Part shown: in pieces, positions 15,184 to 36,417 of the stretch
Position numbering within the stretch: position 1 is the first letter of the stretch
How the letters are laid out: each line of letters begins with the position of its first letter
Notes under the pieces: generated by a model
What the model was told of the DNA's origin: nothing
Database searches by the model: none
What the model saw: only the letters and a program-made list of their open reading frames with translations
Made by a program: the position numbers and the translations under genes
Origin: a virus
Direction: 5' to 3' (one strand)
Virus record (IMG/VR): IMGVR_UViG_3300031952_000067
Location: 1 to 36,417 of that record
Length of the DNA: 36,417 nucleotides

Positions 15184-18080
15184 TGAGTAATCCTTTAATG
15201 TTAGATATTAGAGTAGATGATAAAGGTAATCCAGTTTTGCAGAATATGCAATCTAATATCAGAACATTAGATAAGCACACATCAAATATGTTTACTACTA
15301 TGAAGAAAGTTTTTGCTTCTAGTATTTTAATTCAAGCTATGTATAGTCTTAAAAATTCTATTTATAATGCAGGAAAAGAAGTAATGGAATTTAATAGAAT
15401 TTTTAAACAGGTGGAAGGTATTACGGGTACTACTGGAAAGGCTTTAAATGATTTAAAATTAAAAACTATAGATATTAGTAATACTACTGAACATGCATCC
15501 ACTGCCATTGCTCAGGCTGTACTTAATCTTACTAAAATGGGTCTTACTACAGAAGAATCACTAATGGCCATTCCTCATATTGCTAATTTAGCTACAGCTT
15601 CTATTACCGATTTAGATATTGCTAGTGAAGTAGCTATTCAGACTCTTAAATCTTTTGAGTTGCCTGTAATTGAAATAGGCAGAGTTGTGAATGTTATGCA
15701 TGGAGCAATATCAATGACGGCTATTGGTTTTGAAGATTTTGCTGAAGCAATGAAATATGTAGCACCTGTTGCTAAAACGATGAATATCGGTCTTGAAGAA
15801 ACTGCTGCCATGATTGGTATATTAGGCAATGTTGGCATTAAAGGTTCACTATCAGGTACATCACTTAAGAATATGTTTCTTAATATTATGAAACCTTCTG
15901 AAAAAGTAAGAAATGTGTTAGAGGGTTTAAATGAAGAAGGTTTAACTTTCACTAAAATATTACGGGCTATGCATGAACAGAAAGTACCCATTAATGAGTT
16001 TCTAGAAACCTTTGATAAAAGAGCAGTTACTGGATCACTTGCACTAAGTAGACTTACTGCTGAAATTAAAAAATTAGAAGAGCGACTTGGTACTATAAGT
16101 GTCTCTGAGGCTGCTGATATTATCCGGGATGCATGGATACCACAACTATTAATATTAAAAAATGTTTTTATTAATACTTTTATAACAATGGGAGAGATAT
16201 TAGACCAGACTGATCTTGGGGTATCTATAGGAGATATAACTGAAAGATTTATAGAATTTCAAACGTGGATGCGGGAACACCCAGAAGGTATAGAAAATTT
16301 TGCTAAAGCTGTAGCATATTTAACTTATCAATTAGCACAATTAGTTACATCTGGATTTGAGATAATAATCAAAAATTTAGATGGAATAGTCAGAATTGGT
16401 AAAGTATTCATTTTAATTACACTATTTAAGTATTTTGATTTATTAAAAGTAGCTGTGATAGGTGCAACTCCCGCTATTGGAACTTTTGGAGTAGCTATGA
16501 GTGCAGCTATGCCCATTATTAGTGTTGCTGCTCTGGCCATACTTGCATTGGGTGAAGCCTTTAAATATCTAACAAATAAGATATTAGAAGCTGAACGTGC
16601 AAAAATATCTGCTACATGGGGAACTGGATTAACACAAATAGAGACTCAAATAAAAGCCGCTAAAGATTTTTTAGTAGAATATAAAGATGTGATGAAGGGG
16701 TTGGAGACCCCTTGGGGTAACTTAGGGGGGGGAGAACAAGAAGATATTGACAAGCTTATCAATAAATTTGCTAAGTTATATAATTTTAAGGTTGAATTTT
16801 TTAAGCAGGCAGCATTTTTTGGTGATGATTTTGTAAAAGCATTACAGACAAAATTTGGAAATGCAGAGGATGAAGCTCAAAAAATTAAAGATGTATTGAA
16901 TACTATTTTTAAACCAGTTATAGTTCCAGAGAAACAGACAGGTAAAACTGATGCTGAAAATTATTGGGAATCTTATATTAAGTATTTAGAATTAATTGGA
17001 GAGGGTAAATCTGAGGCTGTCGCTAGAGTTTTAGCTGGTTTTTCTTTGCAGACCTTTGAATTATTATCAAAATCAATGGAGACTATAGCTGGTTTAAGTA
17101 ATCCACAGATACAATCTCTTGGAAAATTAACTCCAGGTTTTGAACAAGAAGTTAGTAAAATGCCTGTAACTGGTAACTTGATGAAAACATTAGCTATACC
17201 AACTTTATCTGTAGAGACAGAAGATAATTTAAAATTAATTGCAATGAATACCCTTATTAATACAAAAACAGAAGAGAGAGTAGAGATAATAGATAAATTA
17301 ATTAAGAACTATGAGAGCGAATTAAAATTAATGGATGATATTGCAGTGGCTAATAAGGATATAGCAGAAGCTAAAGCAGTATTAAGACAGGCAGAAATAG
17401 ATGCTGCATGGGAACAGTTTGATGCTTATGCAGAAGCTGCGGATATGTTTTCTGGAATGATGGTTTCTATTTATGACTTTCAATTGCAAAAATTTCAAGA
17501 AAAACATCAGGTAGAAATGTCTTTACTTGATGAAAGATATAATAAAGAAAGTAGTCTTGTTCAAAACAATTTTTATAAGAAACAAATTATTGATAGGCAA
17601 TACCAGAAAGAGAAAGAGAAATTAGCTAAGCAACAGGAAAAGATAGAAAAAGAATATGCTAAAAAACGCAAAGCGTGGGCTATGATAGAGGCAGCTATCA
17701 ACACCGCTGTTGCTGTAACAAATGTATTTAGGCAATATGGAGGCAATCCAGTTGCTTTTGTGTTAGCAGCTGTTGTTGCTGCTGTTGGTATAGCACAAAT
17801 AGCTATGATAGCCAACCAAAAAGAATATTTTGGCGGAGGTTATACCGGAGATGGTGATACTAAAGAACAAGCCGGTATTGTTCACAGAGGTGAATATGTT
17901 ATACCTAACAAACGTCTTACTGCATTAGGTGGAGCTAGAAGGGTAGAACAAATAATAGATGAAAATATAAATTTCAAAGGAACAAAAACAGTAACTATTT
18001 ATATAGATACATTCATAGGTCAAAAAGATTATGAAAGAGGATTATATAAGAGATTACAAATGGAGAGTGCAAGATGGTAA
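15183..18080 (+). CDS. Tail tape measure protein
   Basis: 965 residues; sets tail length and is ejected with the DNA. Residues about 65-290 match the TP901-type core (FKQVEGITGTTGKALNDLK, TEHASTAIAQAVLNLTKMGL, ATASITDLDIASEVAIQTL, MHGAISMTAIGFEDFAEAM). Hydrophobic segments lie near residues 410-460, and a second hydrophobic stretch (WAMIEAAINTAVAV to AIAQIAMIA-like) near 835-880. A long coiled coil covers about 780-835. The C-terminus has GGGYTGDGDTKEQAGIVHRG then EYVIP, a motif common in tape measure proteins and linked to C-terminal processing. ATG overlaps the stop of the chaperone extension by one base. Confidence 0.92.
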   Translation: MSNPLMLDIRVDDKGNPVLQNMQSNIRTLDKHTSNMFTTMKKVFASSILIQAMYSLKNSIYNAGKEVMEFNRIFKQVEGITGTTGKALNDLKLKTIDISNTTEHASTAIAQAVLNLTKMGLTTEESLMAIPHIANLATASITDLDIASEVAIQTLKSFELPVIEIGRVVNVMHGAISMTAIGFEDFAEAMKYVAPVAKTMNIGLEETAAMIGILGNVGIKGSLSGTSLKNMFLNIMKPSEKVRNVLEGLNEEGLTFTKILRAMHEQKVPINEFLETFDKRAVTGSLALSRLTAEIKKLEERLGTISVSEAADIIRDAWIPQLLILKNVFINTFITMGEILDQTDLGVSIGDITERFIEFQTWMREHPEGIENFAKAVAYLTYQLAQLVTSGFEIIIKNLDGIVRIGKVFILITLFKYFDLLKVAVIGATPAIGTFGVAMSAAMPIISVAALAILALGEAFKYLTNKILEAERAKISATWGTGLTQIETQIKAAKDFLVEYKDVMKGLETPWGNLGGGEQEDIDKLINKFAKLYNFKVEFFKQAAFFGDDFVKALQTKFGNAEDEAQKIKDVLNTIFKPVIVPEKQTGKTDAENYWESYIKYLELIGEGKSEAVARVLAGFSLQTFELLSKSMETIAGLSNPQIQSLGKLTPGFEQEVSKMPVTGNLMKTLAIPTLSVETEDNLKLIAMNTLINTKTEERVEIIDKLIKNYESELKLMDDIAVANKDIAEAKAVLRQAEIDAAWEQFDAYAEAADMFSGMMVSIYDFQLQKFQEKHQVEMSLLDERYNKESSLVQNNFYKKQIIDRQYQKEKEKLAKQQEKIEKEYAKKRKAWAMIEAAINTAVAVTNVFRQYGGNPVAFVLAAVVAAVGIAQIAMIANQKEYFGGGYTGDGDTKEQAGIVHRGEYVIPNKRLTALGGARRVEQIIDENINFKGTKTVTIYIDTFIGQKDYERGLYKRLQMESARW

Positions 18081-18507: not shown

Positions 18508-21500
18508 ATGCCATTTTCTACAAGTACACTTTCACATATATCTATTGTTATTTACCCAAATAGTACAGATACCTGGACTATTAGTTCTCCTTTTCCGGGG
18601 GAAGTACTAGGGGTTGGGGAAGTTGCATTTGTAATATCTACTGCCAGTGTTTGTAATGATGGATCACTTCACCTAGTTCCGGGTAGACTAATAGATATTA
18701 ATACACATTCAAATGAAATAGATTTTTTAATAAAAACTTTAATGGATAGCAAAGCTTCTGCTGAGTCATCAGGTATAGGTGGTCTGTCTAAGTTAAAAGA
18801 TTTTTCTTTTAGTATGATTAAGGACAATGGAGCCATAGGTGGTAATATCACATCAAATAATATTATATCTTTAATAGGCAGGGTCATAGTATTAGTTATT
18901 GGAATAGACTCTAATGACATTACTGATATTGCAAACCCACTCACAGAAAGGGTGGTCTATAAAGGTAAAATTTCACACCCCTCTAAGGATAATTTAAATA
19001 TTACTTATGAGGTTAAGGGACTATTGAGTGCAGCAGATAGCTCTGTAGGTGGCGCCAAAGTTACAAACTCTGATGGATCGGTTACTATTGAACCTATTGT
19101 GTTTGGAGATTGTGGTGAATTACTTGTACCACTTACAAAGAAGATTGATGGGAATAAAATTACACTACAATTTAGTCAGGGAGATGATTATATAATAAAA
19201 GATTTGTATGTGAAAGCTAGTTCTGGAAATGAACCTATTTATGGGAAAGTAAATACTGCTTTTGATATTGTAAATGATGAGATTGTTTTTAAGACATCCA
19301 TGTCTACAAATCTTGTGCTAATGAAGAATATCCCAGCCGGAATGAATATTCTACAGGTTAATGGTCATTGGGAAATAGGTATAATTTTTACTACTCCCAT
19401 GATTTATGTACCTGTAGCGGATGAGGTTTGTGACTTCCAATTAAAGACGGCTGCAAATGAATTTTTATATACTACAAATAAGTTTATTTATCAGAGGACA
19501 GAAGTAATTTCGGTTGGAAATGTTGATACTACTGTATATTTCTTTACATGTGGTTGGGAAGCAATATTTGGATATATACATGAGATTATAGAAGATGGTG
19601 CTTATAATTCTGGTGGGAAAGTTTATTACCCGCAGATATATTTTGGTATTGGACGTGTTTGTCATCAGGTAGATTATAATATTGTGGGAGAGACTCAAAA
19701 TCCTGTTGAGAAAGAAAGTGATGCATTACCTTATGATGGTAGTACATGGCTTTTTAAAGAACTAAAAGAAGAAATACAAAAACGGAATACTGCTTCTGTA
19801 AAAGCATTTCAAACTATTCCTCCTCAAGGTCTTGTTATCAAGATAGATAATGAACAGATGTTAGTAACATATTCTGAGAAGAATAGTAGTGAACCTACTT
19901 CTGAAGTAGCTACTGGAGCTCCTTCTAATTCTTTAATTTGGGTTATCAGAGGATTTAATAATACTGCTGCTGTATCTCATACTGCTGGAGCTCCAATTAT
20001 TGTGATGGTAGACTCGCTAGAACAGATTTTTTATACTATAGAAAGAGAATTACAATCTTTAAATACTATATCGCCTTCAGGAGATTTTACTTTTTTGAAT
20101 ATTTCTGAATTTTTAAAAGGTACTAAAAATTTAGAAGTGAAAAGTTGGGGTGGTCAAGGTATGTCTTATGGTAATCATGATCCAGTAGGATTTATTGGAT
20201 TAGATTGGAATTTGCCTGATTTATCTGGAGATATCTATCAATTATTTATGATAGGAAAGGCATATTGTAAAGGAGAGTTAACATCAGGTTTGTTTTATAA
20301 TGGGTGTTCTATTACTATGGCCTTAAATCCTAAGGAGGATATTGAAACCGATTATGATTATAGACGTTTTTTTGGACAGATGAGAAGAAAAATTTCTATT
20401 AGTAAAGGTATGTATCTATCCCATTATCTTGATTGGAATGGAGTAAAGTATGATGATATACAGGGTGGTTATATTTTTGATTTAGATACGGCTTGGATGT
20501 GCCATGCCAGAGTTGATCCTGTTACTAAGGATTTTTATTTGGGATCTAAAAGCTCACAACTTTCTTCCATCACAAATTGCTCTGAACTGAAAGATCTTAA
20601 TTTTTTTGTGGTATTTAATTCTAATACTACAAATGGTAAGAAAAGCACATTTTCAATGACTAGACCCACGTTAAATATTGTATTAAAATCAAATTTAAAA
20701 GACGTGGATGTTTATGCTCAATTGATCCCGAAAAGTTTATTTGTTAATCCAAAAGCAACTTATGATGTTGGTGATAATTGTAAAATTGCATTATTTCCAG
20801 AAGATAATCCACTTATTGTATCACCTGTATATCCTAGTATATTAGCTTTATCTGATGATAATTTGAGATATTTTGGTCTTATTCCTATGTTGTATGGTTC
20901 AAATTTTGGAACTCCATTAATTCCTGGAGGAGTTATTGGTACAGGTTATTTGGCAGAAAATATTTGTAAATTATTTGATATTGGTAAAGTATTTCCAGTG
21001 GTAGGAAAATGTCAATATGTTTGGAGTTCTGATAATATAATAAATTATGTTCCTAGTGGATTATTTGATATAGGTAAAATATTGGTAGATGGCGGGAATT
21101 ATTATGTATGGGTTGATTCTGTAGCTAAGAAATTAAAATTAGTAGAAAAAACTCTTATAAACACCAATGGTAATCCAGTAAATATAATAGAGAAATTACT
21201 TACTACATATTGTCCTGAAATAAGTTTAGATACAACAAGTTTTACTAGGGCTAAATTAGATAGAAATACTTGGAGAGCAAGAGTATTAGTTGATGATGAA
21301 ATTAAATTAAGTACGCTTATTGATATGATTGCAAAAGAGCATGGATTGATTGTATATGAAGGACATGATGGTAAGATTTATATTGTTGCTATTAATATAC
21401 CTTTTGGTGGTTTTGGTTCTCAAAATATAACTTTACATGATATTTTATATGATAAAACTAGACTTAGTTATATAGAAGAATTTACTAGTATTGAATATTT

Positions 21501-22005: not shown

Positions 22006-22023
22006 CTAGTTTAAGTGATCCAC
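22004..22023 (-). promoter_or_regulatory. Dispersed 20-bp motif, site 6 (reverse)
   Basis: Reads GTGGATCACTTAAACTAGTT on the minus strand. It overlaps the stop codon of the tail tip gene and ends next to the AAAGGAG of the fibre gene, so it faces against the genes around it. Confidence 0.65.
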
Positions 22024-22036
22024 AAAGGAGATTATT

Positions 22037-24232
22037 ATGGCAGATAGGGAAATAACATTTTACCCAAATACGTTGACTACTTTATTAAGTAGTCTTAAGG
22101 CAAAGCAGAGAGGAATTACCACAGATGCTCCTGCTGACCCTAATAATGAGGCTATTTGGGAACAGAGTGAGGGTCAATTGGTATTTAAAGACGCATCAGG
22201 GGATAGCCATATAGTTGCATTGCAAAAAACTTATGACTCCGGAACATCTACGTGGACAAGACGTAGTAATGTTTTTGCTGATTTAGAGGTTGATGAGATT
22301 TATACTGAAGTGGGTTTGATAGATCAATATTTAGGAAGTGCAGTTCCCATTAGTGAATCTGGAGTTACCACTCTAGATGCAGGGTTTACAGCTTCTTCAA
22401 TCGTGGGTTGTTTGAACGAGTTGTTAGATAATATAGTTACCCCTGATCCTTTTTGGAAAGCATTATCTGCTGATACAGTATCTCCTAGAGATGAAAATGG
22501 TTATAATTATGTATATATTAATTCTGGATTAAAAGATCAATATTGTAGTGGTATACCATTAGCTGAATCTGGTGAAACTGGATTAGATGGTGGATTTACA
22601 GCTACCTCATTGGTGGGGGCTCTAAATGAATTAATTAATATGACTGTCATTGGTTTTGCAAATCCATCTGTAACAGTAGGATTGACTGTTAAAAATGGTA
22701 CTGCAATTACAGCTATGAGAAGTGATGCTGCTCCTGCATTGGATCAAGGTATTGCGCCAACATGGACTTCAGATCATACGTGGGGAACAACCAAAAAAGT
22801 AATTTTCAGAGATTCCGCACTTTACATATCAAGTAAAGGTGATGGTTATCTTGATTTTGATGCCGATACTGGTTTTCGATTTAATACAGGCAACGTCGGC
22901 ATTGGGTGTATACCGAATGCAAAGTTAGAAGTTGTTATCTCATCCGGAACCGCTGTAGCAATTTCTAACGCTACAGTTGGTATGTCAATCATACCGGAAG
23001 CAATAGTAAATGACAGAACGGTAAGATTTACCAACAATAGCTCCCTTGCAACGGGAGGGTGGGATTTTTTCGCCACTGACGGGGCGTTCAACGCGTCTCG
23101 TGTTAAAATTCAGAACAACGGTTTTGTTGGTATCGGGACGGTTGCACCATTATTGAATGTTGGTTCTGCAACGGGTGATTTTGATACATACAGTTCGGGC
23201 TTACATATCAAATCTCCATCTTCATATAATGCTAGATTGATATTGGAAGGTGGGAGCGCATCTACTCAGGGTTATCGTAATGCAGCAAATAGTATTATTT
23301 TTTGCAATACAACAATGACAACAGCTAATAATAGAATGTTTATTATAGGTCAGGATTGCGGGAATGCTGATACTGGTGATTTTTTTGTTAGACCTATTAA
23401 TGCTGATGGGAGTATTAAAAGTTATAGATACAATATGAGTGTATCTACAGCAGAAGCAAGATATGAAACAAGTACATCTGATGCTGTAGGATATGCTTTA
23501 CAACTTAGACATCATAGAAATGGTTCGGATTTAACTGGTGCTGATGTTGTTGGTAGTATAGATTTTGTTGGAAGAGTTAGTAGTGCATGGGAAATTGTTG
23601 GGCAAATAGAATCACGTTATTATGGTGCTAATGGTGGACAACAAGCATTAAGATTTTTGACTAATGGAACTTTAGCTATGTATATTGAAGATCATGGTGG
23701 TGGAATTTATATACAACACGAGTGTGATATTGCTGGATACTTAAATGCAAAAGATCTTGTATATATAGCACAAAAAGCTCTTATTGGTGCAAATTATGGT
23801 TCAGGTTATGACCCATTAAATAATGTGGGTTCTAGTGCTGGAGATTTTGCTGCACGTTCTGTTGGTATGCATATTATAGCACCATCTGAATATCAAGCTA
23901 GATTGATTCTAGAAGGAGAATCAAAATGTGATAATTCATTTACTAATGGCCCCAATAGTATCATATTTTGTAATAAAACTAAATCAACTGCAGATAATAG
24001 ATTGATGTTAATAGGTCAAGATGGTGGGTTTGAAGGTGCTAATTCTTCTGACTTTTGGGTAAGGTCTTTGGATGCGGATGGTACCCCCAAAAAAACAGCT
24101 ATGGTATTAGAACAAGATACAGGTCATGTACGATTTCCTAATTTACCTGTTACAACTGATGTAGGCTTCACTCAATATGCGGTTTATTACGATACTGGAA
24201 CTGATAAATTATATTATTATGATGTATCATAA
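22037..24232 (+). CDS. Tail fibre-like protein with internal duplications
   Basis: 731 residues, ribosome site AAAGGAG. Residues about 95-200 hold two related 40-residue blocks (GLIDQYLGSAVPISESG and GLKDQYCSGIPLAESG, each followed by LDxGFTAxSxVGxLNEL). Residues about 290-375 contain NVGIG and FVGIGT signatures typical of fibre shafts and intramolecular-chaperone-type fibres. Two larger related blocks (starting NVGSATGDFDTYSSGLHI and NVGSSAGDFAARSVGMHI, both with ARLILEG and NSIIFCN) cover about 373-480 and 595-705. No S74 peptidase chaperone was recognised at the C-terminus. Part of the gene (about 22860-23215) has clearly higher GC than the rest, suggesting domain exchange. Likely binds the host surface. 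Confidence 0.65.
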   Translation: MADREITFYPNTLTTLLSSLKAKQRGITTDAPADPNNEAIWEQSEGQLVFKDASGDSHIVALQKTYDSGTSTWTRRSNVFADLEVDEIYTEVGLIDQYLGSAVPISESGVTTLDAGFTASSIVGCLNELLDNIVTPDPFWKALSADTVSPRDENGYNYVYINSGLKDQYCSGIPLAESGETGLDGGFTATSLVGALNELINMTVIGFANPSVTVGLTVKNGTAITAMRSDAAPALDQGIAPTWTSDHTWGTTKKVIFRDSALYISSKGDGYLDFDADTGFRFNTGNVGIGCIPNAKLEVVISSGTAVAISNATVGMSIIPEAIVNDRTVRFTNNSSLATGGWDFFATDGAFNASRVKIQNNGFVGIGTVAPLLNVGSATGDFDTYSSGLHIKSPSSYNARLILEGGSASTQGYRNAANSIIFCNTTMTTANNRMFIIGQDCGNADTGDFFVRPINADGSIKSYRYNMSVSTAEARYETSTSDAVGYALQLRHHRNGSDLTGADVVGSIDFVGRVSSAWEIVGQIESRYYGANGGQQALRFLTNGTLAMYIEDHGGGIYIQHECDIAGYLNAKDLVYIAQKALIGANYGSGYDPLNNVGSSAGDFAARSVGMHIIAPSEYQARLILEGESKCDNSFTNGPNSIIFCNKTKSTADNRLMLIGQDGGFEGANSSDFWVRSLDADGTPKKTAMVLEQDTGHVRFPNLPVTTDVGFTQYAVYYDTGTDKLYYYDVS

Positions 24233-24549: not shown

Positions 24550-24605
24550 ATTATATGTAGTTTAAATAATCCACTAAATAGATATTGAATAGGAGTAAAT
24601 AATGG
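24522..24605 (+). repeat. 84-bp direct repeat, copy 1
   Basis: Covers the last codons of the preceding gene, a reverse copy of the dispersed motif, and the leader and ATG of the next gene. It matches 24833-24916 at all but about six positions, at an offset of 311 bases. Confidence 0.9.
24555..24574 (-). promoter_or_regulatory. Dispersed 20-bp motif, site 7 (reverse)
   Basis: Minus strand reads GTGGATTATTTAAACTACAT, with TATAAT at 24550-24555, starting at the twentieth base of the motif. It lies in the leader of the next rightward gene but points leftward. Confidence 0.6.
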
Positions 24606-24832: not shown

Positions 24833-24916
24833 GTTTGGAGATTTTATAATTAATCTATAGATTATATGTAGTTTAAATAATCCACTAAATAAATATTAAA
24901 TAGGAGGAAATTATGG
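24833..24916 (+). repeat. 84-bp direct repeat, copy 2
   Basis: Second copy, placed right after the stop of the small membrane protein gene. It includes an untranslated remnant equal to the last codons of the 24247 gene (GTTTGGAGATTTTATAATTA) and ends in the leader and start of the next gene. Confidence 0.9.
24866..24885 (-). promoter_or_regulatory. Dispersed 20-bp motif, site 8 (reverse)
   Basis: Identical to site 7 (GTGGATTATTTAAACTACAT on the minus strand) with TATAAT at 24861-24866. It was carried by the 84-bp repeat. Confidence 0.6.
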
Positions 24917-25689: not shown

Positions 25690-26235
25690 TTATATTAAAT
25701 CTAATAATTTTTTATATATCTGTAAACACAATCTTGCATCAAATTCTGCTCTATGTATTTGTTCACTGCATTTAAAAAATTTACTTAAATTGTGTAATGA
25801 TAAATTTTCTATATCTAGTTTTCCTTTATCTTTTAAGGCTTGTGCTAATATCACAGTATCTCTATAATATCTATTAAATATATTATTGTATTGCATCCCT
25901 AAAAATAATTGTAAGAAAGATTTGTCAAAACTATAATTGTGCCCTAGTGGTATTAATTTGATTCCTTCTAATACTTCTTCATGCCATTGACATAGAGCAT
26001 TTCTTACTTGACTTGGTACAGCTTCTTTTTTTAATTCTGTTAGTGATAATTTGTTTTTTTCCAGTGCTTTAGGATCAGCTAATTCTGGACGCATAGGTCT
26101 TACTTTACATGAGAATGTATGTAATGGTAAAAAAAATTCATCGTGGATTATTAAACTTAGTTCTATTATTTCATGAGTTCCTGCAATTAAACCTGTGGTT
26201 TCAGTATCTATTGCTACTCCATATATTTTATTCAT
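25690..26235 (-). CDS. DEDDh 3'-5' exonuclease (DnaQ/RNase T-like)
   Basis: 181 residues. All three exonuclease motifs are visible: Exo I DTETTGL (D10, E12), Exo II GHNYSFD (about residues 101-107) and Exo III HRAEFDARL (about 158-166), giving the DEDDh set. This fold removes nucleotides from 3' ends of DNA or RNA using two metal ions. Its first eight bases (ATGAATAA) overlap the end of the primase-helicase gene, so translation is coupled. Role is probably proofreading, DNA repair or nucleotide recycling during replication. The replication polymerase at the right edge appears to have its own exonuclease domain, so this one is additional. Confidence 0.9.
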   Translation of the reverse strand: MNKIYGVAIDTETTGLIAGTHEIIELSLIIHDEFFLPLHTFSCKVRPMRPELADPKALEKNKLSLTELKKEAVPSQVRNALCQWHEEVLEGIKLIPLGHNYSFDKSFLQLFLGMQYNNIFNRYYRDTVILAQALKDKGKLDIENLSLHNLSKFFKCSEQIHRAEFDARLCLQIYKKLLDLI

Positions 26236-28906
26236 TTGATATTTCTCCTTTTTCTGTTAAAGATTGTTGTACTAATCTTCTATCTTTTAATACCCATTTA
26301 AAGTCTTTAAAATCAGCATTTAAATTTATAGTTAAATTTCCTAACATTAATTTATTATCTTTCCCATATAATCCTTTTGGAATAGAAGATATTTTAGGAA
26401 ATTTTAAGGAAGTTTTTCTTTGTGTCCAGAATGAGGTTTCTGTTGGATGATTAACAGTTAACCACATCTGAAAGTATGTTTGGAATTCCTCTATTGAAAT
26501 TAAATGTCCCCAAGCATTTAATGTTTTTTCTTTTATAAATTGTTCTAATGGATTAAAATTATCTTCCATTACTTCTAATTTTATTTCTGTCTCTAAACAT
26601 GGTAAATTTAATCTTCCTTCAGGTTCAGGTAATTCATAATGCAATAATTCATATAAAAAAGCAGCAGATTCTTCTTCTAAATATTCTAGTAGATGATGTT
26701 TAGGAATTTCTTTTGTTATTTTATTTACCTCTATTACCACTATTCTGGTGTCTCCAGGTAATACTAGACAATATTTGGCATCATTCGCACACTGCATCCA
26801 ATGTGTTGAATTTGTTATTTCATATACATTTTGGTATTTAGTATTAATAGATATGGTTTTACCCGTCACCCAATCTTTCATTCTATTTAAAGCTAAACTA
26901 CTTCTACTTAAATCAGTTTCTTCAATGACACATAATACTGCATTACTTAATTCACTATTAAAACCGCTTTGAGATTTAAGTGCTTGATCCGCTCTAGTAT
27001 AACCTATTCTATTTTTAAATAATAAACTTAATGCTTCATGGAGTGTACTTTTACCGGTTTTTTGTTCCCCAAAGAAAAATAAATAGGGTAATTGTTCTGT
27101 AGGTTTTTGAAGCATAAAAGCTATCCAAGCAAATAAATAATCTGATCCATCATTAATATTATTTTCAAAACACCACTTGTTAGTTCTAACTACTTCATCT
27201 AATCCACTACCCAAATGTTCTAACAAACTCCACCAATACTCTACTTTTCCTTGTATTGGTTTAATTGAAAATTGTGCAGCATCTTTATTCCATTGTCTAT
27301 TACCTAAATATTCATCTTCAAAAGGTTTATTAACTAGTATCCAGGGATCAAGTATGGTTTTTCCAATTAACTGTTCTATTTCTTGGCGTGAATATCCTAA
27401 CATTTGACTTACTAGCACTGATACTACATTACTTTTTGAATGAGATACCCATTCAGTATTTATATTTATAAACCATCCTGCCTCTATTTTATTACTAATA
27501 ATATGTCTTATTAATGTATCTTGTTGGGTTATTTCTTCATATTCTTTTTTATATAAAAATACCTTTGTCCAATATTTTCTTTCTCTTAAAAATCCTTCAA
27601 TAAGTTCAGGGTCTTTATCTAATAATTCTATTAAAATTATTAATTTATCTCCCTTACTTTTAATTTTAGTAGATCTATTAGTAAATATTGGTGGATAATT
27701 ATATTCTAAATTAAGTAATTTTAAAGTTTTTGTTACTTGTTCTGCATTAGTAAATACATATTCACCTTTTATATTTTCTTTTCCATCATTAAATATGGCA
27801 GCTTCATGTATTGTTGGTTCAGCATTATAATAACATTTAGTCCATCCGTGTTCATCAGTTATCCATGTTTTTGCCTCTGCTATTCTATGTCCATGTCTAC
27901 GTACTATAAAAGCTCCATTTTTTAGTGGAAAAGCAAAACAATTTTGTACACTAGTTCCGGAACTATTTGTTTCAAATATCCCTTTAAGAGATAATGCTTT
28001 ATAACAATCTCTTAAATCAAAAGTATGACAAACTAACATATTATAATCAGTATCCCACCACCAATCTAATTTAGCATTATTACTTATCCATTTCAATATT
28101 TTATTATGGTCATTATCTAAAAGAAAACTTTTAATAGATGAACTTAAATTTTCTAATTTTTTATCACCACTGTGAGTTTTCTTTTTATTTCTTAAAACAA
28201 CTGGTATATGTTCTAACCAGTTTTTAGGTATTTTTGTGATGGGGAATGGAGTTCCTTGTTTAAGATATGTTAATCCATTTGTACCTTCTTGTTTTCTATG
28301 ATAACACCATAAAATACCACCACATGCGTCTACATTAGCATAAAAATTAAAATTTATTTCTATAGATAATATTGACAGTAATGCTCTAGCTAGTGCAGCA
28401 TGTTCATTATGATTTTTTATAGGGAAGGGTTTATCAAAAAATAAATATAAATGAATTCCTTTACCTGATGTAGAACGAAGTAAAGTAATCCATTCTACAT
28501 TTGTTGTTCTATTTTTTAATTCATTTAATTCCTCAAATGACATGCCTTCTTTATGGTTGGTTATTGAATCAAAATCATAGCCTACCCATAAAGATTGTTT
28601 ATTTTTCCAATCCCATCCAGTCATGCCAATACCCTCTACATGTTTTTCTATATCAAATTTTATATCAGTATCAATATATTCAGAATTATCTGTATCAGCC
28701 TGCCAGGGTATCCTGAATGATTTCCAAGTTTCTTTAGTTTTATCATCCTGGAAACCTCTCCAAGTTTTTCCAAAGTATTCACCTTTTATTCGTCTACCAT
28801 TATCTTTAGCTACATTAACTTGAACTTCCATATTTTCATAATATAATTGTGCAATAGGTGAAACTTGAAATTTTAAGAAATTTTTTATGGCTTCTGTTTT
28901 TTTCAT
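26228..28906 (-). CDS. Primase-helicase, AEP plus SF3/D5-like
   Basis: 892 residues. The N-terminal part has archaeo-eukaryotic primase features: WVGYDFDS (DxD, about residue 107-114) and STSGKGIHLYLFF (about 144-156). The C-terminal part is a helicase ATPase: Walker A FFGEQKTGKST (about 608-618), Walker B VLCVIEETD (about 652-660), and a sensor-like region THWMQCAND (about 694-702). This fusion occurs in phages and plasmids as a replicative primase and helicase. Ribosome site TGGAG precedes the ATG. The middle region (about 260-480) shows no recognisable motif. It is the central replication enzyme of the leftward arm. Confidence 0.88.
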   Translation of the reverse strand: MKKTEAIKNFLKFQVSPIAQLYYENMEVQVNVAKDNGRRIKGEYFGKTWRGFQDDKTKETWKSFRIPWQADTDNSEYIDTDIKFDIEKHVEGIGMTGWDWKNKQSLWVGYDFDSITNHKEGMSFEELNELKNRTTNVEWITLLRSTSGKGIHLYLFFDKPFPIKNHNEHAALARALLSILSIEINFNFYANVDACGGILWCYHRKQEGTNGLTYLKQGTPFPITKIPKNWLEHIPVVLRNKKKTHSGDKKLENLSSSIKSFLLDNDHNKILKWISNNAKLDWWWDTDYNMLVCHTFDLRDCYKALSLKGIFETNSSGTSVQNCFAFPLKNGAFIVRRHGHRIAEAKTWITDEHGWTKCYYNAEPTIHEAAIFNDGKENIKGEYVFTNAEQVTKTLKLLNLEYNYPPIFTNRSTKIKSKGDKLIILIELLDKDPELIEGFLRERKYWTKVFLYKKEYEEITQQDTLIRHIISNKIEAGWFININTEWVSHSKSNVVSVLVSQMLGYSRQEIEQLIGKTILDPWILVNKPFEDEYLGNRQWNKDAAQFSIKPIQGKVEYWWSLLEHLGSGLDEVVRTNKWCFENNINDGSDYLFAWIAFMLQKPTEQLPYLFFFGEQKTGKSTLHEALSLLFKNRIGYTRADQALKSQSGFNSELSNAVLCVIEETDLSRSSLALNRMKDWVTGKTISINTKYQNVYEITNSTHWMQCANDAKYCLVLPGDTRIVVIEVNKITKEIPKHHLLEYLEEESAAFLYELLHYELPEPEGRLNLPCLETEIKLEVMEDNFNPLEQFIKEKTLNAWGHLISIEEFQTYFQMWLTVNHPTETSFWTQRKTSLKFPKISSIPKGLYGKDNKLMLGNLTINLNADFKDFKWVLKDRRLVQQSLTEKGEISNE

Positions 28907-29289: not shown

Positions 29290-29555
29290 TATTCATCTCC
29301 TTTAAATAATAATTTTATTAAATATAAGATATAGTTTATTATAGTTTTTATTGTTAATAAATCTCTAGTTGTTTCTGTGAGTAGTACAAATGATCCACTA
29401 AAGTATATATCTGAGACTCTATTATTTAATTTATCCAGTTCTTTTAAAGCTTCCTTCCTATTGAAATATACAGATATTATCTTATATAAAATATTTGTAT
29501 CACCATCTGAACTACCACTAACTCCATACTCTTTTACAATAATATATATTTTCAT
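29289..29555 (-). CDS. Small protein, DUF7336-like pattern
   Basis: 88 residues from the ATG at 29555, chosen because GGGAGG lies 9 bases upstream; a longer in-frame start at 29591 lies inside the nuclease gene without a ribosome site. The order strand (MKIYIIVKEYG), KIISVYFNRKEALKELDKLN, then a strand pair resembles small phage proteins of the DUF7336 sort, recalled from memory. The C-terminus is hydrophobic (IINYILYLIKLLF) and may contact membrane. ATGA overlap with the upstream nuclease gene. Confidence 0.5.
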   Translation of the reverse strand: MKIYIIVKEYGVSGSSDGDTNILYKIISVYFNRKEALKELDKLNNRVSDIYFSGSFVLLTETTRDLLTIKTIINYILYLIKLLFKGDE

Positions 29556-30433
29556 AATAAATTTACCTCCCATTGGCTTTCCATATACCATTTTTCTTCT
29601 TTAGCAGCTAACCATACTAAATCTTCATCTTTGGTTGATGCTAATCTTTGTATAAATGACCCATCTATAATACTATTCCAAACTTGTTTATACCTTAATA
29701 CTAAGATTTCTTGGTATTTAGAAGTAGCAATACCTCTATATTGCGCTATACTTTTTACAAATTTATTATGAAATATTATTGCATCAATAAAAACTGGAAA
29801 TGGTTTTCCTATTGGTATACCTAATAACCACCCATAGGTTGTTAATTGGGTTGCCCAATAATTATTAATTTCTAATATAGATATATCTTTTACATATCTT
29901 GGATGTGCTGCTCGTGGTCTTGAATTTTCCCATAATCTAAAATATTTAGGAGGTGGAGATATAGAAGTGGTACTAGTATAACCCATTACTTTCCAATCAA
30001 ATGGGTATTCATTTATATTATCTGTATCTGTATCTAGTGGATCATTTGTACTAGCATCAGCTTTACCCATTATTGGTATTCCCTCTATTGGTCTAATTAT
30101 GTGTAATTCTACATTTGTAAATTTATCTAAATCTATTACGTTTGTATAAGCATTTAATGCTATTTTACCAGCGGTGAAAGCTTCATCTTGATTAGTTTCA
30201 ATTCCTTTTTTTAGATTTGGTAAAATATGTTTTTTATCTTGGAATTTTGATAACATTAAATTTGATTTAATATAATAGTCAAAGGCACTTCCAACAGCAG
30301 CATTGAGAGCTTGTGGTTCTTTCGGTAATTTATTGTAAATTAACCTATTCAGGTAAAACATATTGGGCATATTTTCCGCTGTAATTAATGCAGATGGAGA
30401 TAAGTATTGTATATATTTTTCAATTTTTAACAT
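29552..30433 (-). CDS. RecB/Cas4-type PD-(D/E)XK nuclease
   Basis: 293 residues. Motifs in order are YLSPSAL at the start, GSAFDYYIKS (helix with conserved G), GIPIMGKADAS (first acidic residue), PFDWKVMG (the D-x-K core) and NNYWATQLTTYGWLLG (the Q-L-x-x-Y motif that marks RecB-like nucleases). This family acts as single-strand exonuclease in repair and recombination or prepares DNA ends. No cysteine cluster is seen, so an iron-sulphur version as in Cas4 is unlikely. Lies between other DNA-processing genes; its start overlaps the gene upstream by 14 bases. Confidence 0.85.
   Translation of the reverse strand: MLKIEKYIQYLSPSALITAENMPNMFYLNRLIYNKLPKEPQALNAAVGSAFDYYIKSNLMLSKFQDKKHILPNLKKGIETNQDEAFTAGKIALNAYTNVIDLDKFTNVELHIIRPIEGIPIMGKADASTNDPLDTDTDNINEYPFDWKVMGYTSTTSISPPPKYFRLWENSRPRAAHPRYVKDISILEINNYWATQLTTYGWLLGIPIGKPFPVFIDAIIFHNKFVKSIAQYRGIATSKYQEILVLRYKQVWNSIIDGSFIQRLASTKDEDLVWLAAKEEKWYMESQWEVNLL
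30037..30055 (+). promoter_or_regulatory. Dispersed motif, copy inside the RecB-like nuclease gene
   Basis: Plus strand reads GTGGATCATTTGTACTAGC, against the direction of the gene. A related copy on the minus strand lies at 29380-29398 (GTGGATCATTTGTACTACT). Confidence 0.35.
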
Positions 30434-30679: not shown

Positions 30680-31060
30680 CTATAAAAGTAAATGGTGTAA
30701 TCTTGGACTTAGTGCAAATAATCCATTAGGTTCTTCAAATAATTTTTGATATAATCGTTCACGTAAATTATAGTTAAGTGTTCCTCTTAAATCTTTTGCA
30801 GCTATTACATATATGGGTACACCACATGAAATCCATAAAGGGAATTTAATCTTTTGAGCAGGTGTTAATGTTATGTGATTATATTTATCTAGTACCTTCA
30901 TTTCTATCCATCTAGGAGAATATTTATGATGCATGGCATACGTATCTGGAAATCCTTCTTGAAATTGATTTCCTACGGTTTTTTCTGTATACCATCCATA
31001 GTCAGCCATGTGAATTCTAAATGGGTTAGTTATTAATTCTACTTCTCTTTGTATTGACAT
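30680..31060 (-). CDS. VRR-NUC-type nuclease
   Basis: 126 residues. GFPDTYAM (about 36-43) followed by RWIEMKV (about 50-56) gives the PD...ExK catalytic core, and LTPAQKIKFPLWISCGVPIY then VI matches the closing helix-strand of VRR-NUC proteins. These are small PD-(D/E)XK endonucleases, in phages often linked to Holliday junction or branched DNA processing. It differs from the RecB-like enzyme two genes downstream, so the module has two distinct nucleases of this superfamily. Confidence 0.8.
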   Translation of the reverse strand: MSIQREVELITNPFRIHMADYGWYTEKTVGNQFQEGFPDTYAMHHKYSPRWIEMKVLDKYNHITLTPAQKIKFPLWISCGVPIYVIAAKDLRGTLNYNLRERLYQKLFEEPNGLFALSPRLHHLLL

Positions 31061-31429: not shown

Positions 31430-31792
31430 TTATAGTTTTTCTACGTGGATTATTTTATCTGCTTTAAAATGTTTATTAGAATGTTTTCCTTCTTCAAATT
31501 CCATTAAACATAAATTAGCAACATCTACTAACATTTCAGTATTACCTGTTTTTTGGTAAGATTTAAGTCTCTGGTAAATGGATTTTATTCTATTATATTG
31601 TGGTTTCTCTTTATCATGTAATTTACCATATCTAAATGCACCCATTACTAATCTATGTCGCATTAAAGATTCAAATAAATCACTCCATTCTGTTCTAAGT
31701 AGTGACCATAAATCTGGTACTGTAGTATTTATTCTTCTAATGTCGCTTAATTCTTGCCAAGCTTCTCTTAAAAAATCGTGTTGGGTTTTCAT
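31430..31792 (-). CDS. Conserved phage-type helical protein
   Basis: 120 residues, all helical. The segments WSDLFESLMRHRLVMGAFRY, GNTEMLVDVANLCLMEFEEG and SNKHFKAD resemble a widespread phage family of unknown role. The E-x5-D-x-A-N pattern is similar in style to the metal-binding helices of MazG-type nucleotide pyrophosphohydrolases, so nucleotide-pool control is possible but only a suggestion. The start overlaps the end of the upstream membrane protein gene by four bases. Confidence 0.55.
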   Translation of the reverse strand: MKTQHDFLREAWQELSDIRRINTTVPDLWSLLRTEWSDLFESLMRHRLVMGAFRYGKLHDKEKPQYNRIKSIYQRLKSYQKTGNTEMLVDVANLCLMEFEEGKHSNKHFKADKIIHVEKL

Positions 31793-32012: not shown

Positions 32013-32984
32013 CTACTCCCTGTTAATATTAGCCGATACCGGTACTCCATTTATTGTAACACCAAAAAAAGAAAATTTAATTTTTTTTCCTATAGGGTAT
32101 ATTTTCTCTATATAATTTATTTTCTTTTCTTGATCCGTTAGACCTGAAATATTACAGATAACTTCATGTCCTACCATAGATTTATCTCCTCCATGAATTT
32201 CTAATATCTGATTATCCCATATAATAGAGGTAACTAATGATCCTATATTACCAATGTTTTTTCCAGTTTTGCCCATTTCGTAATCAATTATAACTCCTTC
32301 ATAATCATATTTTGCTTTCCACTTTAGTGAATTACTTGATCTTTTACACTCGTATAATCCATTGGGGTCAGCAAAAATTAATCCTTCCCATTTATTATTT
32401 ATTACTTCTTGTTGTTTATTTATTAAGTCTTCTACATTATTTATAACCAAAGTAAGAATGGTTTCAAAATTATCATTAGGTTTAAGGGTGGTAAATAATT
32501 CTATTACTTCTCGATAAGGATGGCCATCATATACTATACTTGAATATGCATCTGTTGGTGATAATAAATTTCTTATATCCCATAACTTATATGGTTTAAT
32601 ATTGAATCCAATTAATTTAATACTATGCCATATTGGGTGGGACATATTTTTTCTACTACAATATGTTTTGATAATATTAATATTATCATTGTACCATAAT
32701 TCTCCATGAATAGGTACTCTCTGTGGTAAATTATTTAGAAAATAGTTTGGAGCTTCTAATACTTTAGGTTTATTATCTCTACCAAGTGTCCATAATCCTG
32801 TTGATAATTTCATTTTATCTTTTCCTCTATAATACCAGGGTATATCTTTAGCTAATAAGCCTCTGGTAATTCCACCATCCCAAAGGGCACTCCAACCATT
32901 TAATTTACGCGAACAATATCTACCTTCTACCTTTTTAAAGTCTCCATTCCACCAATGAGACAGCATTCCAAATTCTTTTGACAT
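32013..32984 (-). CDS. ATP-dependent DNA ligase
   Basis: 323 residues. Seals nicks through a lysine-AMP intermediate. Motif I is RKLNGWSALWDGG with the probable adenylated Lys27; motif III HGELWY (about 93-98); motif IV KWEGLIFADP (about 199-208); motif V LKWKAKYDYEG (about 223-233). The last 90 residues are beta-rich with KKIKFSFFGVTING, fitting the C-terminal OB domain. Short phage ligases of this length lack the N-terminal DNA-binding domain. The leader contains a copy of the dispersed motif that runs into the ribosome site. Confidence 0.88.
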   Translation of the reverse strand: MSKEFGMLSHWWNGDFKKVEGRYCSRKLNGWSALWDGGITRGLLAKDIPWYYRGKDKMKLSTGLWTLGRDNKPKVLEAPNYFLNNLPQRVPIHGELWYNDNINIIKTYCSRKNMSHPIWHSIKLIGFNIKPYKLWDIRNLLSPTDAYSSIVYDGHPYREVIELFTTLKPNDNFETILTLVINNVEDLINKQQEVINNKWEGLIFADPNGLYECKRSSNSLKWKAKYDYEGVIIDYEMGKTGKNIGNIGSLVTSIIWDNQILEIHGGDKSMVGHEVICNISGLTDQEKKINYIEKIYPIGKKIKFSFFGVTINGVPVSANINRE

Positions 32985-32992
32985 TTTTTCTC

Positions 32993-33010
32993 CTAGTTTA
33001 AGTAATCCAT
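32993..33010 (-). promoter_or_regulatory. Dispersed motif, site 9, fused to the ligase ribosome site
   Basis: Minus strand reads ATGGATTACTTAAACTAG and continues GAGAAAAAATG, so CTAGGAG is both the end of the motif and the ribosome site of the ligase gene. It occupies the whole gap after the HTH gene. Confidence 0.6.
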
Positions 33011-33480
33011 TATTTAGTTAATTGTTTTACTTCATTTACCGTTAAATTATAATTTTTTAAAATACCTTCACGTTTGGTTATTATGTATTTATCCAATATT
33101 TCCTTTATTTTATTGGAGGTTAAATGTAATTGTTGTGCTATTTGTGAATTAGTTAATTTTAAATTATGTAATGATATTATGGTTTCTTTTGTTTTATTTG
33201 ATATTTCTACGGAATTTAATAACCTATATAATCTTGATCTGCTTATTTTATATATATCAGACAGGTAATCTAATTTATATCCGAATTTGTATAATTTATA
33301 TAATTTTAATATATTGTATTCATTTATTTTTTCTCGTGGTCTTATTATTTTATAGTATTTTCTTAGAATATAATATACATTAGCGGTTTTTATTTTATAT
33401 TTGAGTGCTAAATCTCCAACAGTTAATCCAGATATATAATTCGCTACCAATGGTTCTTTTATTAAATCGTATTTATTCAT
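33010..33480 (-). CDS. Triple helix-turn-helix DNA-binding protein
   Basis: 156 residues, very basic. Three similar units are visible: residues about 12-40 (YISGLTVGDLALKYKIKTAN), 62-90 (LYKFGYKLDYLSDIYKISRS, RLYRLL) and 105-135 (NLKLTNSQIAQQLHLTSNKI). Each follows the helix-turn-helix pattern of homeodomain-like or resolvase-type domains (x-GxxxxxLAxxYxIS-x). No recombinase catalytic domain is present, so a DNA-binding regulator is the simplest reading. The first eight bases overlap the methyltransferase gene (ATGAATAA). Copies of the dispersed motif lie at both ends of the gene (33514 and 32993), making it a candidate for the motif-binding protein. Confidence 0.65.
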   Translation of the reverse strand: MNKYDLIKEPLVANYISGLTVGDLALKYKIKTANVYYILRKYYKIIRPREKINEYNILKLYKLYKFGYKLDYLSDIYKISRSRLYRLLNSVEISNKTKETIISLHNLKLTNSQIAQQLHLTSNKIKEILDKYIITKREGILKNYNLTVNEVKQLTK

Positions 33481-34252
33481 AAAATTCTCCTTTTTCCACC
33501 TGTGGTGGTGTAATTAGTTTAAGTAATCCATTAATACCCATTTGGGCTATTTTACAATATTTTTCACTTTGTTCTATTCCTATAAATCTTCTTTTAGTTT
33601 TGATACTGGTTATTGCTACTGTTCCTGAACCAGAAAAAGGGTCAAGTATAATATCATTAACGTAAGATAACAATTTAATATTTTTTTCAGCAAAATCAAT
33701 ACTAAAATTTGCTGGTGTTAATCCTTTAGTTTCTGTTTTGATATTCCAAATTCCACGCGTGAGGTCTATGAAATCTTTTTTTGAGATATCACTAATGCCT
33801 TTTTTATCTTTTTTCCACCTTTCTTTAAATAGTATTAATACTCCTTCAAATGGTGAATTAATATATGGTGAACTTGCTGACATCCAACTACCCCATGCTG
33901 TTCTTTTTGTTAATGTTGGATCAGTCCATATAGCACAGGAATGGTGTTTAAAACCAATAGACAAAGCAATGCCATTTAAATTAAACAGGGGTGTCTCTCT
34001 GTGCTTAGAATTACCTAGTGATAAATAATGGTTTAATGACATTCTTCCATCCGGTTTAAGAACACGATAGCATTCTTTGAGCCATTTAGAACACCATTCA
34101 TAATATAACTTCCACGGTTTTTTATCACTATAACCATCATATTCTATTCCAATATTGTAAGGCGGGCTTGTGACAATTAAGTCAATATAATTATCTGGTA
34201 TATTTGGAAGTATACTTAAGCAATCTCCACAGTATATTGTATTCAGTTGCAT
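33473..34252 (-). CDS. Beta-class DNA methyltransferase (N4-C or N6-A)
   Basis: 259 residues. The catalytic motif IV comes first (DLIVTSPPYNIG, TSPPY at 28-32) and the AdoMet-binding motif last (DIILDPFSGSGTVA, about 198-211), then RRFIGIEQSEKYCKIA. This order defines the beta class. SPPY rather than DPPY is more usual in N4-cytosine enzymes, but both bases are possible. No partner endonuclease is visible, so it is probably an orphan enzyme that modifies phage DNA, perhaps to evade host restriction. Ribosome site AAGGAG follows a motif copy. Confidence 0.88.
   Translation of the reverse strand: MQLNTIYCGDCLSILPNIPDNYIDLIVTSPPYNIGIEYDGYSDKKPWKLYYEWCSKWLKECYRVLKPDGRMSLNHYLSLGNSKHRETPLFNLNGIALSIGFKHHSCAIWTDPTLTKRTAWGSWMSASSPYINSPFEGVLILFKERWKKDKKGISDISKKDFIDLTRGIWNIKTETKGLTPANFSIDFAEKNIKLLSYVNDIILDPFSGSGTVAITSIKTKRRFIGIEQSEKYCKIAQMGINGLLKLITPPQVEKGEFYE
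33514..33531 (-). promoter_or_regulatory. Dispersed motif, site 10, just before the HTH gene
   Basis: Minus strand reads ATGGATTACTTAAACTAA within the last codons of the methyltransferase gene (residues NGLLKL), 33 bases before the HTH gene start. It is close enough to act in its leader. Confidence 0.5.
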
Positions 34253-34256: not shown

Positions 34257-34274
34257 CTCCTTTAAGTAATCCAC
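34257..34274 (-). promoter_or_regulatory. Dispersed motif, site 11, at the methyltransferase start
   Basis: Minus strand reads GTGGATTACTTAAAGGAG. The first fourteen bases match the consensus; the remainder is the ribosome site itself, four bases before the ATG. It fills the gap after the polymerase gene. Confidence 0.55.
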
Positions 34275-36417
34275 TATTTATTGGCCCATGATTCCATATT
34301 CTGTTTCCATGTCATGGCCAATAATGGAATTTGTTTTTTATATTTATTAATATATTCATGCACAACAGTTTGGACTCTGGTATTAATTTTATTGGGACAT
34401 AATATCTCATCATGCATATTAAATAGCAATAACTCCCATTCATTAATTCCAGGTGGTTGTAATTCCCATAACGCATACTCTAATCTTTTTGTTATTTCCC
34501 CTCCTGGGGATTGTATTTCATGGTTACCCGCTGCTCTTATAACAGAGGATTGTAATCCAAAGGCTGCACCAAATAATGCTGATTGTAAGGCACCTCCTAT
34601 TGTTTGGACTCTTTCCCTACGTTTTACTTGTATTTTTAATTTTTTAAATTCTAGTGGAGGGTCACATGCCAGAGTATAAAGAGCCTTTATTATAGAATAT
34701 TCTAATGTAAAATATCTTTTAAATCCTAAAAAAGATTCAGCATGTGTTTTTGGTTCTTTCCATATAACTTCCCCATAAGGTGTTGGTTGTGATAAAGCTG
34801 CAAAATCTTGATATACCCTTTCATTGTGTGTTTTGATATTAGAGTATTTATTATTAAATTCTTTTATAGCCTTATCTATTTCTTCAGTACTTAATAATAA
34901 AGTTTTTGATAGTGTGATTGCTTCTGCTAAATATAATCTAGCAAAAAATGATTCTTTGGCACGTTCATAGTATCCATTGGGTTCTGTTTGTGGTATTCCT
35001 TTAGTAGCAATAATTTTTTCATAAGGTAGATTATAAACAAAACTTCCCCATAATGCATGTACAGATTTCCCAGATAGAAGTTCACTTCTTAATGTAGGGT
35101 CTTTATATATTGCTTCTGCAATAGATACTTCAAATCCATCAAAATCTCCCCCATCCAATTTCATATTAGGTGGGGCAAAAGTAAATATTTTTCTAATCTC
35201 TCCTTTTGGAATACCTTGAGGATTAATTGATCCACCTTTTATTGGAGTATCTGAATCTTGACCGCCTGATTTTCTATTAGATTTTGTTCCAGTAGTTTTA
35301 AAAACTACATAAAGTCGTTTGCTAGCTTTTAGTTTTTTAAGTAATTCTAACTTTTTATAAGCTCTTCTACCCTCTAAAACCACTTTTACCCTTTTAACTA
35401 GTTCAGGTGATCCATTATTTAATAAGTTATTTAAAGTATCAACATCTGAACTTGTAATCATAACTTTTTCAAAATTGTTAGCAACATGGATAAGATACTC
35501 AATTACCTGTTTTGGTGCATTAAAATTAATTTCAGTACTGGAAGCATTAACTATTTCTTCTTGTTCTTTTATCTGATTAGATAACTCTGTTATGTTTATT
35601 TCAAATCCATGCCAGTGTAGGGCTCCAGATAAACATGCTAACATACTGTTATATTCACCAATAGAATCATAAGGTGATTTAAAATAAATAAATAAGTCTT
35701 TTAAATAAACTACGTCATTGACTGCATATTTTAATCTTCTCTTATCGTGTGTCCATGCCCATATATGATCATATATTACATCTATCCATAAACCTGCACT
35801 TGGATACCAGGAAGACTCTTTGGGCTTTTTTAATGGCAAGAAATCAATTATACTTTCAGTATCAGTTTTATTTAAAAGATATTTCATTATTGGTTTTAAT
35901 CCTGTACTAGGATGAAATATTAATTTTATATTTACAAAGTTAGGATCAACTATTATATTGAATTTTTCTAAATTGTTTTTTTCTTGTGGTGTTATTTCTT
36001 TAGTTGTTCCATTTTTAAGTTCTTTAATCTGCCAAACACTTTCACCTTCTTGTTTTGCAAAATATAATTTAGGAATTTGTACTGTTTGTTGTAAATATTT
36101 GATTAATGGTTCAGATAAAATTTTAGGTACTCTCCTTATGATTATAGGTTTTTGTTTCATTGTGGCTTGTAGTTCATGTTCACGACCATATACCATTAAG
36201 TCTAATGCACCTTGTGGTTTTAAACAATAAGATGTATGTGCTATATTTGTATCTTCTATGTCTAAAATATCTAATGGGTCTGGTATTTTCTGTTGAGGTA
36301 ATAATTTAAAGGTATTATATGTTCTTGATAAATGATACCAATCATGGGTCAAGTTAAAACCAATAATATGGTTATTACAAATATCCTCAATTAACTCTAT
36401 TGTATCTTTTACTTTTT
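34274..36417 (-). CDS. Family A DNA polymerase, 5' end outside window
   Basis: At least 714 residues; the frame stays open to the window edge. Upstream of a possible TTG at 36352 it reads NNHIIGFNLTHDWYHL, an Exo II motif of the 3'-5' exonuclease domain, so the true start lies outside. Polymerase motif A is DFDGFE (replacing DYSQIE), motif B is RAKESFFARLY and motif C is NMHDEI. The Phe four places after the motif B lysine matches Pol I F762, which disfavours dideoxynucleotides. The usual glycine after the motif B tyrosine is leucine here. This is the replicative polymerase of the phage. Confidence 0.88.
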   Translation of the reverse strand, partial: KVKDTIELIEDICNNHIIGFNLTHDWYHLSRTYNTFKLLPQQKIPDPLDILDIEDTNIAHTSYCLKPQGALDLMVYGREHELQATMKQKPIIIRRVPKILSEPLIKYLQQTVQIPKLYFAKQEGESVWQIKELKNGTTKEITPQEKNNLEKFNIIVDPNFVNIKLIFHPSTGLKPIMKYLLNKTDTESIIDFLPLKKPKESSWYPSAGLWIDVIYDHIWAWTHDKRRLKYAVNDVVYLKDLFIYFKSPYDSIGEYNSMLACLSGALHWHGFEINITELSNQIKEQEEIVNASSTEINFNAPKQVIEYLIHVANNFEKVMITSSDVDTLNNLLNNGSPELVKRVKVVLEGRRAYKKLELLKKLKASKRLYVVFKTTGTKSNRKSGGQDSDTPIKGGSINPQGIPKGEIRKIFTFAPPNMKLDGGDFDGFEVSIAEAIYKDPTLRSELLSGKSVHALWGSFVYNLPYEKIIATKGIPQTEPNGYYERAKESFFARLYLAEAITLSKTLLLSTEEIDKAIKEFNNKYSNIKTHNERVYQDFAALSQPTPYGEVIWKEPKTHAESFLGFKRYFTLEYSIIKALYTLACDPPLEFKKLKIQVKRRERVQTIGGALQSALFGAAFGLQSSVIRAAGNHEIQSPGGEITKRLEYALWELQPPGINEWELLLFNMHDEILCPNKINTRVQTVVHEYINKYKKQIPLLAMTWKQNMESWANK
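35396..35415 (-). promoter_or_regulatory. Dispersed motif, copy inside the polymerase gene
   Basis: Minus strand reads ATGGATCACCTGAACTAGTT, in frame as NGSPELV. It differs from the consensus at few places although coding constraint applies, so it may be a functional internal site or coincidence. Confidence 0.35.

Follow-up and report, generated by a model that had tools for sequence, protein, structure and literature searches.

Arrays of short sites dispersed over the genome are known in a few phages, mostly mycobacterial. The stoperators of cluster A phages such as L5 and TipsytheTRex are dozens of asymmetric, phage-specific sites found genome-wide (PMC9283540, PMC6550527), and the cluster A repressors that read them are monomers with two DNA-binding domains whose asymmetric site occurs in 26 copies (PMC9283540). 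Cluster O phages, which have a ParB-like protein and no integrase, carry 34 copies of a 17-bp dyad repeat, a third of them within genes, with a role that is unknown (PMC4351075). SPbeta has about ten 15-bp copies of a repeated element, in promoter regions only, and a single phage-encoded, non-catalytic DNA-binding reader, MrpR, which has a tyrosine-recombinase fold (PMC10516654), whereas the Start Associated Sequences of cluster K are asymmetric repeats that share one orientation, lie 3–7 bp before start codons and include the ribosome-binding site (PMC3203893).

The array described here lies in a virus record of 36,417 bases and 30.6% GC, analysed whole and referred to as the window, and in a longer relative. 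Like the cluster A stoperators, it consists of dozens of asymmetric, phage-specific sites spread over the genome, and its candidate reader, P0001, is small (156 aa, against 183 aa for the cluster A repressor), has multiple DNA-binding units and lacks a catalytic domain. Unlike them, the site is about 22 bp long rather than 13 and present in about 50 copies rather than 26, most of which are inside genes instead of being concentrated in short intergenic spaces; sites are oriented independently of transcription, neither an integrase nor any other indication of lysogeny was detected, and P0001 is a candidate reader where theirs is proven. The likeness to cluster O lies in a genome-wide set of over 30 copies, a ParB-like protein and no integrase, but the cluster O repeats are full dyads, densest at the right end, whereas here evenly spaced half-dyads predominate and only two full dyads occur. 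With SPbeta the array shares a repeated phage-specific site and a single non-catalytic reader, in our case a candidate built of helix-turn-helix (HTH) units, and with cluster K the occurrence of asymmetric repeats close upstream of start codons, although here neither the distance nor the orientation is fixed and sites fall mostly in genes. A feature of ParB/parS systems is present as well, in that the relative encodes a ParB-like protein; two dyads lie upstream of its operon, but some 46 of 50 sites are half-dyads. The array is denser than those known and evenly spaced, shows no dependence on gene direction and persists inside genes in spite of coding constraint, and the compactness of its candidate reader makes the pairing of protein and site directly testable.

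The motif has the consensus AACTAGTTYAARTRATYCACTA, taken from a weight matrix built on the relative. An exact-pattern scan allowing up to three mismatches found 16 sites in the window, against a mean of 0.04 in shuffles, and 38 in the relative, against 0 for a reversed control pattern. With the matrix at 15 bits or more, we counted 35 sites in the window and 50 in the relative (43.7 kb); a threshold of 12 bits gave 54 sites vs 0–1 in Markov shuffles. The matrix was trained on the very sites it counts, and the exact-pattern scan, which is independent of it, agrees with this picture. The motif reported in the initial annotation is thus a real signal far above chance, and the array is stronger than was described there. 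Sites occur on both strands (23:27) at intervals of about 0.9–1.0 kb, evenly across early and late genes, and the gaps between them are more regular than random in the window (coefficient of variation 0.53 vs 0.96, p 0.0002) and in the relative (0.62 vs 0.97). Around 46 of the 50 are single asymmetric half-dyads, with some 17–20 contiguous bases conserved. Inner motif positions (6–17) differ between copies mostly by transitions (71:18) and outer positions by transversions (36:93; Fisher p 2e-14), and the transition-biased core may reflect purine/pyrimidine reading there. An RNA guide reading the motif, a candidate prompted by the same bias, was dropped because wobble would be tolerated as well at A and C positions that do not vary.

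In-gene copies are read in four frames (SGLLELV, TSSSNPL, LVQVIHY and SWIT-type). Synonymous recoding of all genes left a mean of 3.7 coding sites (maximum 9, 60 trials) where 32 are observed, and permuting synonymous codons within genes left 5.4. The use of four frames and the loss of most coding sites on recoding show that selection acts on the DNA itself, and on the same grounds we rejected the idea that the in-gene copies arise at the protein level. Between window and relative, 2 of 608 bases are substituted in sites and 28 of 3590 in flanks. Within a diverged tail gene, two sites occupy matching positions in both phages, the one at window position 19113 is lost and those at 18411 and 19911 are new in the relative, so that density is maintained while positions turn over. 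Intergenic sites are a minority (18 of 50) yet enriched over the 5.7% intergenic share of the genome, and genes with a site centre no more than 110 bp upstream of the start number 18/50, vs 5.9 expected by rotation (p 0.001); these centres lie 14–101 bp before starts, in both orientations. Relative to transcription, 27 sites are antisense and 17 sense, which is no significant bias (p 0.17).

The gene content of the window is that of a tailed phage, with profile matches to a GpA-type terminase and a major head protein, and leftward replication genes at the right encode a family A polymerase, an N6/N4 methyltransferase, P0001, an ATP-dependent ligase, a primase-helicase and an exonuclease. The P0001 gene lies mid-operon, as its ATG overlaps the methyltransferase stop by 8 nt. 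The initial annotation had drawn attention to motif copies at both of its ends, and both are present. The upstream copy, however, falls within the methyltransferase ORF (codons INGLLKLI), where there is no intergenic promoter, and the downstream copy, whose final three bases are the P0001 stop codon, belongs equally to the ligase gene that follows. Genes with a copy on both sides are enriched genome-wide (4 vs 0.27 expected), the other three being 9573–10415, 24602–24832 and the polA gene, and two-sided flanking is not special to P0001. Rfam and tRNA scans were empty; promoter-like matches did not exceed those in shuffles, and therefore no promoter was assigned.

The proposal that P0001 has three HTH-like units and lacks a catalytic domain was borne out by structure prediction and profile searches, which support three tandem HTH units. 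Specifically, a single-sequence AlphaFold model (mean pLDDT 78.6) predicts three successive three-helix units, and the Pfam and PHROGs matches are all HTH-type, of weak to moderate significance, with no catalytic or enzyme domain among them: PHROG 1303 ‘DNA binding protein’ matches residues 51–149 (E 2.6e-8), and Pfam HTH_28, HTH_7 and HTH_23 are sub-threshold. Foldseek returned no significant match to the model; its weak matches include sigma factors, the Pax6 paired domain and Tc3 transposase, which are multi-HTH proteins. The C-terminus (NYNLTVNEVKQLTK; window 33010–33060) resembles the start of a fourth HTH unit, ended by the stop codon within the motif.

Table 1. Genes, predicted HTH units and motif sites of the window. 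Sites are given by 19-bp coordinates; matrix, weight matrix at 15 bits or more; pattern, up to three mismatches.
Feature	Position	Strand	Evidence
ATP-dependent DNA ligase, downstream neighbour of P0001	32013..32984	-	phrog_114 E 1.1e-24
P0001, three-HTH protein	33010..33480	-	ORF calling, AlphaFold, profile matches
HTH unit 1 of P0001, residues 8-43	33352..33459	-	AlphaFold helices 8-16, 21-28, 32-43
HTH unit 2 of P0001, residues 54-92	33205..33321	-	AlphaFold helices 54-65, 70-77, 81-~92; Pfam HTH_28, HTH_7
HTH unit 3 of P0001, residues 95-133	33082..33198	-	AlphaFold helices ~95-106, 111-118, 122-~133; weak HTH_23/HTH_24
N6/N4 DNA methyltransferase, upstream neighbour of P0001	33473..34252	-	PF01555 E 4.7e-38
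Family A DNA polymerase (polA)	34274..36352	-	PF00476 E 4.6e-16; full-length 764 aa in relative
Site	66..84	-	matrix
Site in gene	2405..2423	-	pattern, matrix
Site in gene	2711..2729	-	pattern, matrix
Site in gene	3671..3689	-	pattern, matrix
Site in gene	5362..5380	-	pattern, matrix
Site in gene	7681..7699	-	matrix
Site in gene	8237..8255	-	pattern, matrix
Site upstream of gene 9573	9529..9547	-	pattern, matrix
Site upstream of major capsid gene 10494	10446..10464	-	pattern, matrix
Site in gene	11843..11861	+	pattern, matrix
Site in gene, weak	12797..12815	+	matrix
Site upstream of gene 14414	14316..14334	-	pattern, matrix
Site upstream of tape-measure gene 15183	15074..15092	+	matrix
Site in gene	16028..16046	-	matrix
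Site in gene	17090..17108	+	pattern, matrix
Site in diverged tail gene, kept in relative	18657..18675	-	matrix
Site in diverged tail gene, absent from relative	19113..19131	-	matrix
Site in diverged tail gene, altered but kept in relative	21054..21072	-	matrix, comparison with relative
Site upstream of gene 22037	22007..22025	+	pattern, matrix
Site in gene	22401..22419	-	matrix
Site upstream of gene 24602	24558..24576	+	pattern, matrix
Site upstream of gene 24913	24869..24887	+	pattern, matrix
Site in gene	26141..26159	-	matrix
Site in gene	27191..27209	+	matrix
Site in gene, weak	28477..28495	+	matrix
Site in gene	29382..29400	+	matrix
Site in gene	30035..30053	-	matrix
Site in gene	30710..30728	+	matrix
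Site in gene, weak	31443..31461	-	matrix
Site in ligase gene, weak	32325..32343	-	matrix
Site overlapping P0001 stop, 10 bp before ligase start	32994..33012	+	pattern, matrix
Site 34 bp before P0001 start, in methyltransferase ORF	33515..33533	+	pattern, matrix
Site upstream of methyltransferase	34258..34276	+	pattern, matrix
Site in polA, weak, may be chance	35216..35234	-	matrix
Site in polA	35399..35417	+	matrix

The relative, IMGVR_UViG_3300031999_000055 (43,699 bases) and the only one that the searches yielded, keeps both the array and the P0001 gene (99% identity) and extends 7 kb past the right end of the window. The shared starting base of the two records suggests either a physical end of the genome or a common assembly break. 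They are 97–98% identical outside the diverged tail gene (about 18–21 kb); within that region (window 18025–21041) identity falls to about 70–75%, likely the outcome of host-range exchange.

In the added 7 kb, the non-coding right end (relative 43051–43602), upstream of a leftward operon, contains two full dyads of the GGATTAYTTGAACTCGTTCAAGTAATCC type, in which sites stand back to back, and each of the remaining sites corresponds to one half of this structure. Beside the dyads are 9-bp TATATACTA iterons and a stretch of 10% GC, which is flanked by the dyads and by the densest cluster of sites. This arrangement looks like an origin or a centromere, and we refer to it as a putative origin below. 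The operon encodes a ParB-like protein with its own HTH, P0003 (relative 41363–42352, minus strand, 329 aa; outside the window), which matches ParB chains (E 2.6e-5), the ParB-like phrog_4715 (E 1.5e-12) and, weakly, HTH_ParB. Both dyads are thus upstream of the ParB-like operon and not beside the P0001 gene. No ParA was detected among the proteins of window and relative scanned by profile. The first gene of the operon (42553–43044, minus strand) encodes a cysteine-rich protein of 163 aa in which a segment of about 35 aa is duplicated.

Searches of viral contigs with P0001, polA, ParB, ligase and major capsid queries returned one near-identical relative and one capsid match at 27% identity, in a sequence of 66% GC with no array, and tblastn in 50,697 phages (P0001, polA, capsid and ParB) gave nothing useful. 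A terminase alignment comprised 80 loci, of which the 79 besides the known relative are at most 28% identical, and de novo scans of 16 terminase-related contigs showed no comparable array (4–7 copies at most, vs 26). The 19-mer pattern has 34 exact matches in 84,980 GTDB genomes (257 Gb), one per contig, and among viral contigs other than the relative, single copies are present in 13 unrelated ones, none with an array. Among the viruses and GTDB genomes searched, the array therefore appears specific to this phage and its relative. A host-wide signal borrowed by the phage (uptake sequence, Chi or KOPS) was rejected within the GTDB representatives, where the motif has no repeated use; the true host may be absent from them. 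The phage is a low-GC orphan, unrelated to the mycobacteriophages with dispersed arrays.

We consider P0001 the most likely reader of the array, because a long asymmetric site suits several DNA-reading units, because no other function is visible in the protein and because the L5-type repressors provide a precedent. That it reads the array as a genome-wide regulator is a possibility that we favour tentatively. The phage would then carry a genome-wide array, with about one site per 0.9 kb, for its own DNA-binding protein. A P0001 monomer would occupy each 22-bp asymmetric site, about one third of which would be covered by each HTH unit, whereas the two full dyads next to the putative origin would be bound by a pair. 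On sites upstream of starts and inside genes, on both strands, it would block or slow transcription, and its occupancy would perhaps also block or slow the start of replication, with this action falling before or outside lytic growth. Such a scheme would work in outline like the stoperators of L5-type phages, without an orientation rule. A silencing role has no evident purpose, because no sign of lysogeny was found; specifically, no integrase is among the proteins scanned by profile, from records that may be incomplete. The location of the strongest sites, the two dyads next to the ParB-like operon, also counts against P0001, as do the mid-operon position of its gene, the equal flanking of three other genes and the lack of a significant orientation bias of the sites relative to transcription. 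The initial suggestion of a master regulator is plausible: a three-HTH protein does occur in a phage with a long, asymmetric, genome-wide site, but the flanking copies are shared and a ParB-like candidate is encoded beside the dyads. More doubtful is a variant in which P0001, bound as a monomer to some 50 evenly spaced 22-bp half-dyads regardless of gene direction and anchored at the two origin dyads, would constitute a phage-specific chromatin or genome marking and not a promoter-bound repressor; we think this improbable.

The matches of P0003 to ParB profiles and chains, together with the two dyads upstream of its operon, would fit a reading in which the ParB-like protein recognizes the motif, with the dyads as centromere or operator, the half-dyads as secondary sites (KorB-like) and P0001 acting elsewhere, for example in local regulation of the replication genes. 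Cluster O phages too combine a dispersed repeat with a ParB-like protein, although a role for the latter in genome stability was thought unlikely by the authors of that study (PMC4351075). We regard this reading as rather unlikely here, since nearly all sites are asymmetric half-dyads with 17–20 conserved contiguous bases, their regular spacing over the whole genome is untypical of parS, and a ParA is missing from the proteins scanned. A run of 17–20 contiguous bases is long for the one HTH per ParB monomer. The even spacing across early and late genes, the absence of an orientation bias, the preponderance of in-gene sites and the position of the densest cluster and the full dyads around an origin-like stretch would also suit sites that serve genome handling (replication initiation or titration, condensation, packaging or recombination) and have some other phage protein or a host factor as their reader, P0001 being incidental. 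This we judge unlikely: there is a clear excess of sites just upstream of starts, though relaxed coding constraint between genes could give it, and as for a host factor, no host genome searched uses the motif repeatedly.

The notion that P0001 regulates the neighbouring methyltransferase in the manner of a controller protein, using the two flanking copies as operators, draws on the adjacency and overlap of the two genes and on the motif copies near both P0001 ends and upstream of the methyltransferase start. It is very improbable, and the analogy to controller proteins made in the initial annotation is not supported: there is no restriction gene, the neighbours being ligase, methyltransferase and polA, and the orphan methyltransferase belongs to a replication operon; the overlap between the P0001 start and the methyltransferase stop leaves no space for a promoter; and the motif occurs about 50 times across the whole genome, mostly in unrelated genes. 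Whereas P0001 has three HTH units, controller proteins are small dimers with a single HTH and have dyad operators.

Three further repeats were observed in the window. The protein encoded at 1995–2984 is built from an Asn/Gly-rich repeat of 20 aa (60-nt units in the DNA, at least 12 copies), is beta-helix-like and has two identical motif copies inside its gene. Tandem 18-bp copies of TAATGTATACATTAATAT at 25615–25686, where rightward and leftward genes meet, are possibly a bidirectional terminator or a spacer. Finally, a 101-nt direct repeat (91%) at 24513–24613 and 24824–24924 includes a motif copy, so that each of two small genes is preceded by one.
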